Shown piece by piece: positions 23,619-33,858 of a stretch of DNA of 37,128 nt. This DNA comes from Bacteroidales bacterium (GTDB lineage Bacteria > Bacteroidota > Bacteroidia > Bacteroidales > FEN-979): assembly GCA_016783905.1 (NCBI GenBank), contig JADHVQ010000014.1:1-37128 (forward strand). The letters are read 5' to 3'. The notes under the pieces were generated by a model. It was given only the letters and a program-made list of their open reading frames with translations, was not told the origin of the DNA and searched no databases. The position numbers were made by a program, and so were the translations under genes. Within the stretch, counting starts at the first letter, position 1; each line of letters opens with the position of its first letter.

Positions 23619-25409
23619 GTGAAAAACATCCGCAATTTTTGCATCATTGCCCACATCAATCACGGGAAAAGTACCCTGGCCGACCGGCTGTTGGAGACCA
23701 CTAAAACCATCACGGAACGGGAGTACCAGGAGCAGGTGCTGGATGACATGGAGCTGGAGAGGGAGCGTGGGATCACCATCAAGAGCCATGCCATCCAGAT
23801 GAAGTATACACTGGAAGGAGAAGAGTACACCCTCAACCTCATCGACACCCCTGGTCATGTGGATTTCTCCTATGAAGTCTCCCGGGCTATTGCAGCCTGT
23901 GAGGGAGCTCTGCTGGTAGTGGATGCCACCCAGGGCATCCAGGCGCAAACCATCTCCAACCTTTACATGGCCGTAGATTATGACCTTCACATCATCCCGG
24001 TACTCAATAAGATCGACATGGAAAATGCAATGATTGAGGAGGTGAAAGACCAGATCATCGAGACGCTTGGATGCAACCGGGAAGAGATCATTGAAGCCAG
24101 TGCGAAGTTTGGTTACGGGATCGATGAGATCCTGGCGGATATCGTGCACAGAATACCCCCTCCCAAAGGCGACCCGGAAGCTCCTCTACAGGCACTGATC
24201 TTCGACTCAGTGTTTAACTCCTATCGCGGGATTATCGCCTATTTCAGGATTTTTAACGGTGCACTCCGGAAAGGAGATAAAGTGAAGTTTGTCAACGCCG
24301 GTCAGCAATACGAAGCCGATGAGGTGGGGATTCTCCGCCTCCGGCCCGAACCCAGGGAGGTGTTGATGACAGGAGATGTAGGATACATCATCTCCGGAAT
24401 AAAAACCAGCAAAGAGGTGCAGGTGGGTGATACCATCACCCATGTGGCGCGGCCATGCAGCCAGGCGGTCGATGGATTCGAGATGGTTAAGCCGATGGTA
24501 TTTGCCGGGATCTATCCGGTGGATGCCGACGACTACGAAGAGCTACGGGACTCCCTGGAGAAACTGCGGCTCAACGATGCTTCCCTCTCGTTTGAACCCG
24601 AATCATCAGCAGCCCTGGGCTTTGGTTTCAGGTGCGGTTTCCTGGGGCTACTCCACATGGAGATCGTGCAGGAACGGCTCGACAGGGAGTTCGATATGGA
24701 TGTGATCACTACGGTGCCCAATGTCTCCTACAAGGTCTTTACCACCAAAGGAGATGTCATCGAGGTGCACAATCCGTCCGGGCTACCTGAATCCACTATC
24801 ATTGATCACATCGAAGAGCCTTATATCACGGCCAATATCTTATCCCGGTCGGAGTATGTGGGTGCCATCATGCGGCTTTGCATCGGCAAGCGGGGAACCT
24901 TGAAAAACCAGGTCTACCTGACCACCGACCGCACCGAGCTTACCGTCGAACTTCCCCTTGGTGAGATCGTCTTTGATTTTTACGACAAACTGAAAAGTAT
25001 CTCCAAAGGATATGCCTCATTCGATTACTACCAGTCGGGATTCTATAAGGCTGAACTCATCAAACTCGATATCCTTCTCAATAGTGAACCGGTGGATGCT
25101 CTCTCCACGTTGCTTCACCGGGATCACGCGTATGATTTTGGGCGTAAGTTCTGCCTTAAGCTGAAAGAGTACATCCCCCGTCAACAGTTCGACGTGGCCA
25201 TCCAGGCTGCCATTGGCGCCAAGATCATCGCCCGTGAAACAGTAAAAGCCGTACGGAAAGATGTGACTGCCAAATGCTACGGAGGCGATATCACCAGGAA
25301 GCGTAAACTCCTCGAAAAACAGAAAAAAGGCAAGAAACGGATGCGCCAGATAGGCAATGTTGAGGTGCCCCAGAAAGCGTTTCTCGCAGTGCTGAAGCTG
25401 GACAGCTAG
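23619..25409 (+). CDS. lepA: Translation elongation factor 4 (LepA)
   Basis: LepA/EF4 is a ribosome-binding GTPase linked to translation under stress and to ribosome biogenesis. The GTG at 23619 gives 596 residues beginning with the canonical [11 protein letters not shown]. The GTPase domain has [15 protein letters not shown] (G3) and NKID (G4). The P-loop reads AHINHGKST, with Asn14 where the family almost always has Asp. EF-G-like domains follow, and the LepA-specific C-terminal domain is complete ([15 protein letters not shown], then [20 protein letters not shown]). The length is normal. It starts just after a palindrome and a promoter box. Confidence 0.97.
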
Positions 25410-25481
25410 ATGATGTGCAATTTCTGTGTAACTTTCGCCTTGAAATCTCGTCTTATTACATCAAATCAAAATCACACCCAC

Positions 25482-26441
25482 ATGAAAAAAGCACATCCAA
25501 TTCTGACGATAGCTCTGGCTATCGCCATGATCTTCATTTTACCTGGAAAATCTAAGGGACAGGAGGATGAACATCATACGCATAAGCATAAACACAACAA
25601 GTCTGAAATCAATGTTAGCGGAGTCAAGATCCAAAATATAGGGGATGACTCCGTTGTCATTTATATCAACAAAAAGGAGCATAAATACAATTACGGTTGC
25701 ACCAACTGGAGCACCCTCCCGTTTTACTGTAAGAAAGGGAAGTTCAACGGCCACTGGGCTGGAATTGACTTCGGCTGGAACGGCTATGTGAATAAAGACC
25801 TGAACATGGATTTTGGTCCTGGCAATCAGTACCTGGACATGAATACCGCCCGCTCCCTGATGATCAACCTCAATCCGTTTGAGCTGAATGTGAACATCGC
25901 CAAAAACAAATTCGGATTTACCTGCGGATTGGGCTTTTCGCTGCACAACTACTATTTCAGCGGCTCCTATACCTGGATCGGCGATTCCACCACTCTGAAG
26001 GCATACAACACCATTGACGACAAAGGAAAGAACGTGGGAATGAAGGTAAACAAGCTCTTTGTCTCTTACATCACCCTGCCTTTGTTGTTTGAAATCCAGA
26101 CCAATCCGGGTCACCACATCAACAGTTTCCACTTCACCTTTGGGGTGATCGGTGGATTGCGTTTACAGACCTACCAGAAACAACGCCTCTACCAGTGGCA
26201 GGATACCTATTTTTTGACTGATGACAAAGGAAATAAGGTTGCCTCTTTCTATGCCGATAAAGGCTTGATCCGGAATCATGACCCTTATCACTTAAATCCA
26301 TTCAAACTGGATGCAACCGTCAGAGTGGGCTGGTCATACCTGAACCTTTACGCTACCTACTCCCTGACCCCAATGTACCAGAAAAACAAAGGCCCGGAAT
26401 TATATCCGTGGTCCATTGGAATCACCCTGCTCGGCTGGTGA
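25482..26441 (+). CDS. Outer-membrane beta-barrel protein with His-rich N-terminus
   Basis: The ATG at 25482 gives a 319-residue protein with a signal peptide (KKAHPILTIALAIAMIFIL, cleavage near residue 26). The mature N-terminus contains a cluster of histidines, HHTHKHKH (residues 31-38). The rest has glycine/aromatic alternation, for example GHWAGIDFGWNGYV, FTCGLGFSLHNYYF and FHFTFGVIGGLRLQTY. It ends in a strand-like WSIGITLLGW, as expected for a PorT-like or OMP_b-brl barrel. An upstream in-frame start at 25410 has no signal-like sequence. It follows lepA by 72 bp, may have its own weak promoter, and is convergent with the helicase. No specific function can be assigned. Confidence 0.8.
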   Translation: MKKAHPILTIALAIAMIFILPGKSKGQEDEHHTHKHKHNKSEINVSGVKIQNIGDDSVVIYINKKEHKYNYGCTNWSTLPFYCKKGKFNGHWAGIDFGWNGYVNKDLNMDFGPGNQYLDMNTARSLMINLNPFELNVNIAKNKFGFTCGLGFSLHNYYFSGSYTWIGDSTTLKAYNTIDDKGKNVGMKVNKLFVSYITLPLLFEIQTNPGHHINSFHFTFGVIGGLRLQTYQKQRLYQWQDTYFLTDDKGNKVASFYADKGLIRNHDPYHLNPFKLDATVRVGWSYLNLYATYSLTPMYQKNKGPELYPWSIGITLLGW

Positions 26442-26491
26442 CCCCACTCTTTCTCCCTCCCCTCGAAGGGGAGGGTCGGGGAGGGGTCACC
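26437..26491. repeat. Nested palindrome spanning both convergent stop codons
   Basis: An outer 9-bp inverted repeat, GGTGACCCC (26437-26445) and GGGGTCACC (26483-26491), supplies the TGA stops of the beta-barrel gene (26439-26441) and of the helicase (26489-26487). Inside it, CCCTCCCCT and AGGGGAGGG form a perfect 9-bp stem with a CGA loop, near 26456-26476. Confidence 0.85.
26456..26476. terminator. Possible bidirectional terminator hairpin between convergent genes
   Basis: The inner stem of the palindrome (9 bp, 3-base loop, almost all G-C) lies exactly between the two stop codons. No U-run follows immediately; an AAAAAA at 26493-26498 would give a U-run only for minus-strand transcripts before they reach the hairpin. 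It is therefore a plausible but unproven terminator. Confidence 0.4.
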
Positions 26492-27917
26492 CAAAAAATC
26501 GTTCCTGGAAATTCACCAGGAACATTTTTTTTGTAGCCCGTGTGACCGCTGTATACAACCACCGGAGATACTCCACGTTGAGCATCTTGTCGGTCAGGTA
26601 GCCCTGGTCGATGAAGACAGTGTCCCATTGGCCTCCCTGGGTCTTATGACAGGTCAATGCATAAGCAAATTTCACTTGCAGGGCGTTAAAATGAGGACTG
26701 GCTTTCACCTTTTCAACCCGTTCGCGCCTGGATGGCAGATCGGCAAAATCCTCCATGACCGTTTGAAAGAGCCGGTTGTTATCAGGTTGTGTCAAAGCGG
26801 CCGATTCGGAGGTCAGGGTATCGAGGAGGATCTTGACATCCAGTTCCTGTTCATCCGGGTAATCGATAAACCGAATGGTGATATCGGCAAACCGGAATCC
26901 GTAGAGCTCTTCAAACTTCCGGATGCGGGTGATCTCCACGATGTCGCCGTTGGCGATGAATCCGGCGGAGGATTCGAGGGGGAGCCAGAAATAGTTGTTC
27001 TTCACCACCATCAGGTAATCCCCGGTAGTGATCTCACCGTCGAGGTAGAGAATCCTCCGCCGGATCTCCCGGTTGAAGATGTTGGCACGCTTGTTCGAAC
27101 GGCAAACGACCACGTTGTTTTCCCGTTCCGATCCTGAATATGCCTGATTCAGAGCCTCCTCCAGTTCAGCACCCGTGATCCGGAAGATATCCGGAAAGGA
27201 CTGTAACTTAAACAGCGGGAATTTGACCTCCTGCTTCATGATCTTCTCCCGGATCCGGGTGGCGTTGACCAGAATGCCTGATTCCTGCGACTGTCTCACC
27301 ACCTCAGTAAGTTCAAAGGAGTCGATCTCCAGGTCATATCCGTTCTTCAGAAAAGAGGGATCCAGGGCAGGACTGTAATCCAGTCCGACCGGAGGCAACT
27401 GGGCTGCATCACCAATGAAAAGGAGGCGGCAGTTCTCTCCCGACTGCACATAGGCAAAGAGATCGTCGAGCAGGTTTCGCGAAGCAAACAGTTGCCCTTC
27501 TACCGGCATGGCATGCTGGATCATCGAAGCCTCGTCGACGATGAAGAGCGTGTGCCGGTGCAGGTTCTTCTGCAGCTTCATCTCGATCTGACCCTCTTTG
27601 TTGGTCCAGGCCAGGTAAATCTTCCGGTGAATCGTATGAGCCTGCTTTCCTGTATAGCCTACCATCACCTTGGCCGCCCTGCCGGTTGGAGCCATCAGCA
27701 CAGTTCGTTTCCCGAGAGCCGGGAGGACGTTAACCAGAGCCTTCACCACGGTGGTTTTCCCGGTTCCGGCGTATCCCTTCAAAAGGAATATTGCATTGGA
27801 CCTCTTCCAGGAGATGGTAAGAAACACGGCTAACTCACCCATCAGCTGTTCCTGCCCCGGGGTTGTGGCATAGGGGAATTCATGCAATAGCATGGATCTG
27901 ACACGGTTGACATCCAT
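26487..27917 (-). CDS. RecD-like ATP-dependent DNA helicase (AAA/UvrD_C_2)
   Basis: This 476-residue SF1 helicase resembles the short RecD-like proteins common in Bacteroidota. The Walker A motif is GYAGTGKTT (48-56), followed by VLMAPTGRAAKVM (motif Ia) and FIVDEASMI (Walker B). GDAAQLPPVG is motif III, and VVRQSQESGI matches motif IV. The C-terminal UvrD_C_2-type part has ALTCHKTQGGQWDTVF (motif V) and YTAVTRA (motif VI). It lacks the long N-terminal domains of RecD2 and has no RecB/RecC partners nearby, so it probably acts alone in DNA repair or replication. It ends in a palindrome and lies 9 bp downstream of the start-proximal side of the permease gene's stop, with both on the minus strand. 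Confidence 0.9.
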   Translation of the reverse strand: MDVNRVRSMLLHEFPYATTPGQEQLMGELAVFLTISWKRSNAIFLLKGYAGTGKTTVVKALVNVLPALGKRTVLMAPTGRAAKVMVGYTGKQAHTIHRKIYLAWTNKEGQIEMKLQKNLHRHTLFIVDEASMIQHAMPVEGQLFASRNLLDDLFAYVQSGENCRLLFIGDAAQLPPVGLDYSPALDPSFLKNGYDLEIDSFELTEVVRQSQESGILVNATRIREKIMKQEVKFPLFKLQSFPDIFRITGAELEEALNQAYSGSERENNVVVCRSNKRANIFNREIRRRILYLDGEITTGDYLMVVKNNYFWLPLESSAGFIANGDIVEITRIRKFEELYGFRFADITIRFIDYPDEQELDVKILLDTLTSESAALTQPDNNRLFQTVMEDFADLPSRRERVEKVKASPHFNALQVKFAYALTCHKTQGGQWDTVFIDQGYLTDKMLNVEYLRWLYTAVTRATKKMFLVNFQERFFG

Positions 27918-32187: not shown

Positions 32188-33858
32188 ATGCAAAACTTCA
32201 TCGTATCGGCCCGGAAATATCGACCGCAAACCTTCAGAACGGTGATAGGGCAGCCCTCCATCACCAACACACTTAAAAATGCCATCCTGCACAATCAGCT
32301 GGCCCAGGCATTTCTCTTTTGCGGCCCCAGAGGCGTTGGAAAAACAACCTGTGCCAGGATCCTGGCAAAAACGATCAATTGTGAAAACCTATCTCCCCAG
32401 GCCGAAGCATGCGATGCCTGTCCCTCCTGCGTCTCTTTTAATGAAAATGCTTCCTTCAACATCTATGAACTCGACGGCGCTTCCAACAATTCGGTGGATG
32501 ATATCCGGAGTTTGGTCGACCAGGTTCGGATTCCCCCTCAGATGGGCATTTACAAGGTCTACATCATCGATGAGGTACACATGCTCTCCGCATCAGCCTT
32601 TAATGCCTTTCTGAAAACCCTGGAGGAACCACCGGCCTATGCCAAATTCATCCTTGCTACCACAGAGAAACACAAGATCATCCCGACGATCCTCTCACGC
32701 TGTCAGATCTTCGACTTCCGGAGAATCACGGTGGATGACATTGCCGGTCACCTTCAATATGTAGCACAACAGGAGCAGATCAGCACCGGCGAAGATGCGC
32801 TGCACATCATCGCGCAAAAAGCCGACGGAGCCATGCGGGATGCCCTCTCGATTTTCGACCAGCTGGTGAGCTTTGCCGGCCATGAACTCACCTATGAAAC
32901 CGTGCTGGAGAATTTGAATGTCCTGGATTATGATTACTACTTCCGGATCACAGAGAAGATCCTGAACCACGACGCCTCCGGTGTATTACTGATCCTCCAT
33001 GAGATCCTGGAGAAGGGTTTTGACGGACAACATTTGTTGATCGGTTTTGGGGAGCACATCCGGAATCTTCTGGTTTGCAAAGACCCTGTAACGGTAAAAT
33101 TACTGGAAACAGCGCCGAATATACGTCAACGGTACCAGGATCAGGCGGCGGTTTGCCCTCCTGAGCTGTTGCTGAAGATCCTGGATGTCAATAACCGGTG
33201 TGACCTGAATTACCGGATCAGCAACAACAAGCGACTGCACCTGGAACTGGCCCTGATGCAGATGTGTGTTCACGGCACCACGGCACCACAGCACCACGGC
33301 ACCACGGCACCACCCCCACCATCCAAACCCGTCCAACCTGTCCAACCCGTCCAACCTGTCCAACCCGTCCAACCTGTAACCACCAAAGGTTTCTCAGATG
33401 ATCTCCCGGGAACCATCTCCATCAAATCTCCTGCAAAACCAACGGCAATCACACCTGAGCCAAACGCAGAACAACCTCAAAACCAGGCAGCTTCTTCATT
33501 TACAGAGGAGGAGCTTAAAATCCACTGGAAAACATTTGCAGCCGGTCTGCAAACCGATTTTCCGCACCTCGCCACTACCCTTGCTTCCAGTGATCCCATC
33601 CTGAAAGAGGGGTGGCAGATTGAGTTTGAACTTGACAACCGCATTCTTGAAGAGGAGTTGAACCAGAAGCGTGGAGAACTGCTTGAATTTCTCAAAAAAA
33701 ACCTCAACAATTACCAGATTTCGCTGCAAACCCGTATTCCGGAGAACCACAAAGAGGTAAAACCCTATACTGACAAAGAGAAGTTTGAAAAGATGGCGGC
33801 CAAAAATCCAGCCCTGAACAAACTCAAAGAGCAACTCGACCTCGATATCGAATATTAA
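32188..33858 (+). CDS. dnaX: DNA polymerase III subunit gamma/tau
   Basis: DnaX is the ATPase of the clamp loader that places the beta clamp on DNA. The 556-residue protein has Walker A GPRGVGKTT (46-54), the four zinc cysteines at 65, 75, 78 and 81, Walker B IIDEVH (126-131) and the SRC motif (170-172). The domain III lid and collar follow to about residue 355. The linker (residues 362-396) is encoded by short tandem repeats and is rich in Pro, Gln, Val and His. The C-terminal 170 or so residues contain a tau-like domain (EEELKIHWKTFAAGL and following). It overlaps the next gene by one base (TAATG). Confidence 0.97.
   Translation: MQNFIVSARKYRPQTFRTVIGQPSITNTLKNAILHNQLAQAFLFCGPRGVGKTTCARILAKTINCENLSPQAEACDACPSCVSFNENASFNIYELDGASNNSVDDIRSLVDQVRIPPQMGIYKVYIIDEVHMLSASAFNAFLKTLEEPPAYAKFILATTEKHKIIPTILSRCQIFDFRRITVDDIAGHLQYVAQQEQISTGEDALHIIAQKADGAMRDALSIFDQLVSFAGHELTYETVLENLNVLDYDYYFRITEKILNHDASGVLLILHEILEKGFDGQHLLIGFGEHIRNLLVCKDPVTVKLLETAPNIRQRYQDQAAVCPPELLLKILDVNNRCDLNYRISNNKRLHLELALMQMCVHGTTAPQHHGTTAPPPPSKPVQPVQPVQPVQPVQPVTTKGFSDDLPGTISIKSPAKPTAITPEPNAEQPQNQAASSFTEEELKIHWKTFAAGLQTDFPHLATTLASSDPILKEGWQIEFELDNRILEEELNQKRGELLEFLKKNLNNYQISLQTRIPENHKEVKPYTDKEKFEKMAAKNPALNKLKEQLDLDIEY
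33271..33310 (+). repeat. 8-bp tandem repeat inside dnaX
   Basis: Five units of cacggcac (the third is cacagcac) run head to tail. Because 8 is not a multiple of 3, the frame shifts with each unit; the encoded residues are H, G, T, A, P and Q-rich. Confidence 0.9.
33331..33375 (+). repeat. 9-bp tandem repeat inside dnaX
   Basis: Five units alternate gtccaacct and gtccaaccc. The period is in frame and encodes five V-Q-P triplets in the flexible linker of DnaX. Confidence 0.92.

Follow-up and report, generated by a model that had tools for sequence, protein, structure and literature searches.

A dispersed GC-rich palindrome, probably a REP/RPE-like repeat, carries the stop codons of two convergent genes in a Bacteroidales genome

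How does a single short palindrome come to supply the stop codons of two genes that face each other? The question is raised by a junction in the window analysed here, a stretch of 37,128 nucleotides from contig JADHVQ010000014.1 (assembly GCA_016783905.1), which belongs to a Bacteroidales genome (G000) of 2.47 Mb in 128 contigs that is 89% complete. A plus-strand ORF of 343 aa without a Pfam match at E 0.001 (25410-26441) converges on a minus-strand helicase gene of 476 aa with AAA_30, AAA_19 and UvrD_C_2 matches (26487-27917). A sequence-only reading, which called the plus ORF a beta-barrel gene, had described exactly complementary outer arms, TGA stops for both genes within one palindrome and a perfect 9-bp stem in its centre, and had suggested either an inserted palindromic element that captured both 3' ends or a bidirectional terminator under selection. 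The description is confirmed. Read directly from the sequence, the outer arms GGTGACCCC (26437-26445) and GGGGTCACC (26483-26491) are exact complements, and the inner stem (CCCTCCCCT, 26455-26463, with AGGGGAGGG, 26467-26475) has 9 bp around the loop CGA. The left tip holds the TGA of the plus ORF (26439-26441) and the right tip, as sequence, ORF list and the helicase ends of relatives indicate, holds the minus-strand TGA of the helicase (26487-26489). As RNA, the 55-nt palindrome folds to -40.8 kcal/mol on the plus strand (z -3.43; 2 of 200 shuffles equally good) and to -35.9 kcal/mol on the minus strand (z -3.75; 0 of 200). Most of each outer arm belongs to the inverted ends of the element itself, TGACCCC and GGGGTCA; the element copy, inverted ends plus core hairpin, spans 26439-26489, and the 26437-26491 given earlier includes two further paired bases per side, the outermost GG/CC pair, which the repeat consensus lacks. 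The portion that recurs across the genome, by core-pattern search and direct reading, is the core hairpin of 9-bp stem and 3-nt loop (26455-26475). Elsewhere in the window, short tandem arrays with units of 8-20 bp lie at 33271-33377 and 1938-2034. A known structured RNA was considered and rejected, Rfam giving only five matches, far under the gathering scores.

The answer that we consider likely is that the palindrome is a copy of a REP/RPE-like, non-autonomous, GC-rich repeat spread in a Bacteroidales lineage, with tips that here form both stops, and that copies occupy their positions through selection against protein damage. Units of about 50-70 bp with inverted ends, which in one subfamily read TGACCCC...GGGGTCA, would have spread through this lineage and would persist where the protein is unharmed, either by stop codons between genes or in frame in protein loops; the present copy fills the gap between the convergent genes, and its two TGA tips are both stops.

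The element is dispersed in its own genome. BLAST of 91 junction bases finds nine places, self included, and a genome-wide search for other copies, a check proposed by the earlier reading, gives 43 matches to the core pattern (at most three mismatches) against 2 for the reversed control. Merging overlapping registers leaves 40 distinct sites, 39 of which were kept (C20:32468, where the match falls in coding sequence and the element flanks are missing, was dropped before counting, as were duplicates from overlapping registers at C24 and C117, and C111, a BLAST-only copy, was left out of the counts). The unit common to the 40 sites with flanks is TGACCCCTCCCC, two bases (nn), the hairpin CCCTCCCCTTnAAGGGGAGGG and AGTAAG; some copies continue into another hairpin unit, smaller and in inverted orientation, that ends in AGGGGT. 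The ends of a sister form of the repeat are TACCCC. ACCCC(T/A) lies within reach on 43 of the 80 hairpin sides, TG precedes it in 18 of these 43 readable tips, and at least one TGA tip is found at 16 of the 40 sites. Because TGA tips occur also where no stop is needed, among them in-gene copies in which they are out of frame, TGA is a trait of the element.

Between genes, the copies lie close to stop codons. Crude gene calls (beyond the window, from a home-made finder and partly Pfam-checked) place the 20 intergenic copies between convergent (7), same-direction (10) or divergent (3) neighbours, with the 3' end of a neighbouring gene as one flank in 17. For genes of at least 100 aa that score 15 or more in the home-made finder, TGA is the stop codon in 10 of the 13 cases that lie no more than 40 nt from a hairpin centre, and in 41 of the 116 others (Fisher p 0.006); a ruvC stop discussed below falls under the score cut-off, and including it gives 11/14 (p 0.003). 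Seven of these ten TGAs are an element tip, one (C97) is inside the element and two (C87, C76) are just outside it. Further stops in element tips belong to an IF-3 gene (C50), a polysaccharide-synthesis gene (C86), a metallo-beta-lactamase-fold gene (C115) and an ORF without a Pfam match (C83).

Comparison with relatives indicates what the element did, and did not do, to the two proteins in the window. The helicase end was read in 30 loci, own included, and the opposite gene was inspected in 10 of them. The plus-strand protein has the same Gly-Trp end in all eight relatives compared with a visible end, where the stop codon is TAA (four) or TAG (four) versus TGA here. The helicase stops exactly one residue past Phe-Phe both here and in the four same-genus relatives with a visible end (that of G002 is not visible). 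Neither protein is truncated or extended, since these ends match those of the orthologues, and they match because the TGA tips of the element serve as both stop codons. The proposed capture of both 3' ends holds in the weak sense that both stops lie inside the element, but the protein ends are the same as in relatives. Nor do the observations that the earlier reading had coupled as evidence against itself go together: the element does recur elsewhere in the genome, but orthologues of both genes end at the same residues without the palindrome.

What lies at the helicase junction varies from relative to relative. Within the genus, a similar but degraded hairpin is present in G001; in G003 and G005 the helicase stop is the TAG of an TAGGGGCGACC palindrome; and in G004, GTAGGGGCGACC repeats run from GGGTGACC to the contig end. 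More distant relatives show other repeats (e.g. a CACGTG type in G007 and an ATGACGAATGAC type in G014) or short plain spacers (G020, G009), and in some a different gene neighbours the helicase. Loci from three sister genomes (L025, L027, L028) carry TAGGGGCGACC palindromes at the helicase 3' end, the TAG being the helicase stop in two. Judging from GGGTGACC, which sister G004 also reads, the helicase may have had its TGA before the element arrived.

A second junction of the same kind shows a filled and a near-empty site. At C20:37508, an element copy lies between convergent ruvC and arginase-family genes (Pfam), with both TGA stops in its tips. The arginase-family protein has the same Met end in all 13 relative loci compared (of 22 loci), and ruvC is found, convergent, in 12 of the 13. 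In the corresponding place G004 has only TGACCTCA, G003 has a sister-form element and G005 has no element; no target-site duplication is evident at this junction, the single site aligned. The dispersed copies, this near-empty G004 site and the other repeats or short spacers at the first junction in relatives bear out the suggestion of an inserted palindromic element. The empty orthologous sites that such an insertion leads one to look for are represented by TGACCTCA at the second junction, but at the helicase junction relatives have mostly other repeats or short spacers. G004 reads TGACC at both double-stop junctions, which could be the remnant of a lost copy.

Almost half of the kept copies lie within protein genes. 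In-frame copies account for 19 of the 39 kept sites, within 18 ORFs, as detected through open ORFs, so that broken genes would escape; all 18 products match Pfam at E 1e-4 (10/10 and 8/8 in two batches). The hosts include MurG, MutS, two AlaS, NadE, two ketosynthases, radical-SAM enzymes and a class-V aminotransferase joined to a SelD-like AIRS domain (names beyond the Pfam/PDB labels are our reading), and the predicted element-encoded peptides are Pro/Gly-rich, of the type PSPxxGEGxGG. Across the element stretch of MurG, PDB 3s2u is 17 residues shorter and the MurG of G004 is 16 codons shorter. In a structure model of mean pLDDT 84.8, residues 243-260 are the only internal segment of at least three residues below 50 pLDDT, and the element segment is predicted as a low-confidence loop between helix and strand. 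In NadE the element lies between the two domains, where the homologue 5kha is shorter. The element peptide is missing from MutS relatives, most of which carry a different insertion in that loop; AlaS relatives are mixed, some with other insertions at the same loop, and the AlaS of G001 has a nearly identical element peptide. In 29 relatives, examined at one locus per genome, the hairpin inside a longer open frame is seen also in L156, L159, L160, L166 and L175, in frames taken without a Pfam check. Three individual loci deserve mention. Neighbouring ketosynthase paralogues (L075:2836-3870 and L075:5371-6318) share the sequence context in which the element lies. The own genome has two alaS genes (L081, L066), on different contigs and about 75% identical to each other, each with an element-derived loop; a paralogue or a foreign contig would account for the pair. 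The aminotransferase and SelD-like domains share one ORF (L061:10571-12907) with an element-rich linker, and a similar peptide occurs in G002 (L175).

The core pattern was also counted in relatives. Across 61 genomes, own included, at least five matches are found in 24 of 37 same-family genomes versus 1 of the 24 that represent the order's other families. Since reversed-control counts range from 0 to 5 in each of the 61, low counts are weak (e.g. 13 versus 5 in G001), and since many listed matches in G042 (100 matches) and G023 (5) are AAAAA-loop or other variants, the counts describe a pattern and not one strict element. Helicase relatives that carry a name come from MAGs of uncultured Bacteroidales and Bacteroidetes; among the matches listed, NIOZ-UU56 is nearest, at 87% identity.

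The variety of insertions at the same places suggests another possibility, to which we give a minor share of our belief, namely that permissive sites held in common across the family (flush stop junctions and a few loops, as in MurG, MutS and AlaS) are filled time and again, species by species, with short repeats that are unrelated to one another. The repeats found filling such sites are the present palindrome, TAGGGGCGACC palindromes, CACGTG palindromes and heptamer-like arrays. The MurG loop occupied by the element here has other repeat-like insertions in G002, G003 and G005; loci L089-L112, L114-L137 and L281-L298 likewise show differing repeat-like in-frame insertions per relative in the same MurG, MutS and AlaS loops. 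If sites are refilled in this way, a general insertion or slippage process would be at work, and stop codons and linker peptides would routinely be rebuilt from repeat DNA.

The inserted element could also be kept for a function, as an mRNA 3'-end stabiliser or a modulator of translation termination, as proposed for REP/BIME; the effect on translation of REPs adjoining stop codons has been a subject of work. A stem of -36 to -41 kcal/mol that begins at the stop codon would suit such a role, as would the neighbouring 3' end that, by the crude gene calls, flanks 17 of the 20 intergenic copies. We nevertheless regard it as unlikely, because relatives have either no repeat or an unrelated one at the orthologous junctions, so that a need for the structure is not visible there.

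Selection against protein damage, we infer, sets the positions of copies, and not a choice of target. The reverse reading, in which the element or its mobiliser targets the stop-codon sequence itself (insertion at TGA/TAR), could draw on the two junctions with flush double stops, on the TGA excess near copies and on the resemblance of the G004 site TGACCTCA to joined element tips. It is nonetheless improbable, since TGA tips are present, out of frame, in in-gene copies, the element tips alone account for the TGA excess, and selection against protein damage predicts identical positions.

Terminator-like structure is found next to the palindrome. A separate hairpin with an A-run, a stem and a T-run is formed by the last codons of the helicase, outside the repeat (26494-26530, both strands, by fold and terminator scan). 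In a scan of 25400-27900 it is the sole site, at 26500-26524 on both strands, although the count of 2 compared with 2.4 in shuffles is no evidence by itself. On the helicase strand it folds to -15.0 to -19.6 kcal/mol in five same-genus genomes, and to -1.5 to -10.2 kcal/mol in five more distant ones (both without shuffle control); on the opposite strand it reaches -14.9 to -15.1 kcal/mol in same-genus genomes but -8.2 in G005. That the palindrome is itself a bidirectional terminator kept by selection, as the sequence-only reading had offered, is rejected as very improbable. The two convergent 3' ends do have a highly stable hairpin right between them, whichever strand is read, but a T-run follows its GC stem on neither strand. 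In the scan the neighbouring hairpin alone qualifies, and that one is kept in the genus when the palindrome is not; and 19 of the 39 kept copies lie inside ORFs, where a terminator should do harm.

If the palindrome is a REP/RPE-like repeat, it would probably be mobilised in trans by an enzyme. In the genus, G000 (89% complete) and G004 are the two genomes rich in copies, and neither shows a match to Y1 transposase (PF01797). It is found in 20 of the 25 family genomes searched and is absent from G000, G001, G002, G004 and G017, and its count does not track repeat copy number across the 25 (rho -0.06). The core pattern occurs within about 1.5 kb of a Y1 gene in none of ten fetched loci of relatives, five of them of the same family. 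Y1/RAYT mobilisation is thus not supported in these incomplete MAGs. In one of these ten loci, about 600 nt past the Y1 gene of G009, a loosely element-like palindrome, CCCCCTCTCC-TTAA-GGAGAGGGGG (L141:2458-2481), is a possible lead to a mobiliser.

Several known systems resemble this repeat. REP/BIME sequences, GTAG- or CGTC-tagged, are described as short dispersed palindromes, often in inverted pairs, that are found chiefly close to 3' ends, in spacers flanked by convergent or same-direction genes, some of them at most 20 bp from each of the two 3' ends at a convergent junction, and that also occur in frame in genes, many of them repair genes; in that account CGTC repeats occur in Bacteroidetes, and the GTAG tips give a TAG stop to flanking ORFs (PMC3733652). 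The present repeat shares the many-copy, short, dispersed palindromic form (43 against 2) and the prevalence between convergent or same-direction genes among 20 crudely called intergenic copies, whereas only 2 of 40 sites have a GTAG, and 3 of 40 a CGTC, no more than 25 nt from the hairpin (either strand), the stop that the repeat carries is TGA, a single copy provides it to two convergent genes, and neither G000 nor G004 shows a match to the Y1 gene associated with REPs. Among TnpA-REP/RAYT-linked repeats, subclasses 2.4 and 2.6 are reported from Bacteroidetes, the former in frame inside transposase genes and the latter with atypical hairpins lacking the GT[AG]G foot (PMC6006769); the likeness to 2.6 concerns host phylum and the described hairpin type, and the own genome has no Y1 match. 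Bacterial MITEs, according to a review that covers both MITEs and RPEs in frame in genes, are non-autonomous, with inverted ends and in-frame gene fusions (PMC2229807); the present repeat is shorter than these, no parent insertion sequence was found, and no target-site duplication is evident at the single site aligned. Rickettsia palindromic elements (RPE), found in frame in conserved protein genes and between genes (PMC2229807, PMC3733652), are alike in behaviour; the present repeat is GC-rich and in another lineage. As with RPE, the 18 ORFs with in-frame copies all have Pfam matches, and homologues without the segment are found for MurG (3s2u, G004) and NadE (5kha), with MutS and AlaS mixed among the genes compared. 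We found no published account of this particular repeat in open PMC papers. Stop-supplying TAG tips and in-frame copies are already part of the published description of REPs (PMC3733652), and the repeat is of a known type. Annotators of such MAGs should bear in mind that repeat DNA may be what encodes an odd Pro/Gly-rich loop or a TGA stop. The present case extends the REP/RPE-like habit of supplying stops and entering genes in frame to an untagged repeat of uncultured Bacteroidales, whose TGA tips are able to end two convergent genes at once and whose copies lie inside widely conserved enzymes.
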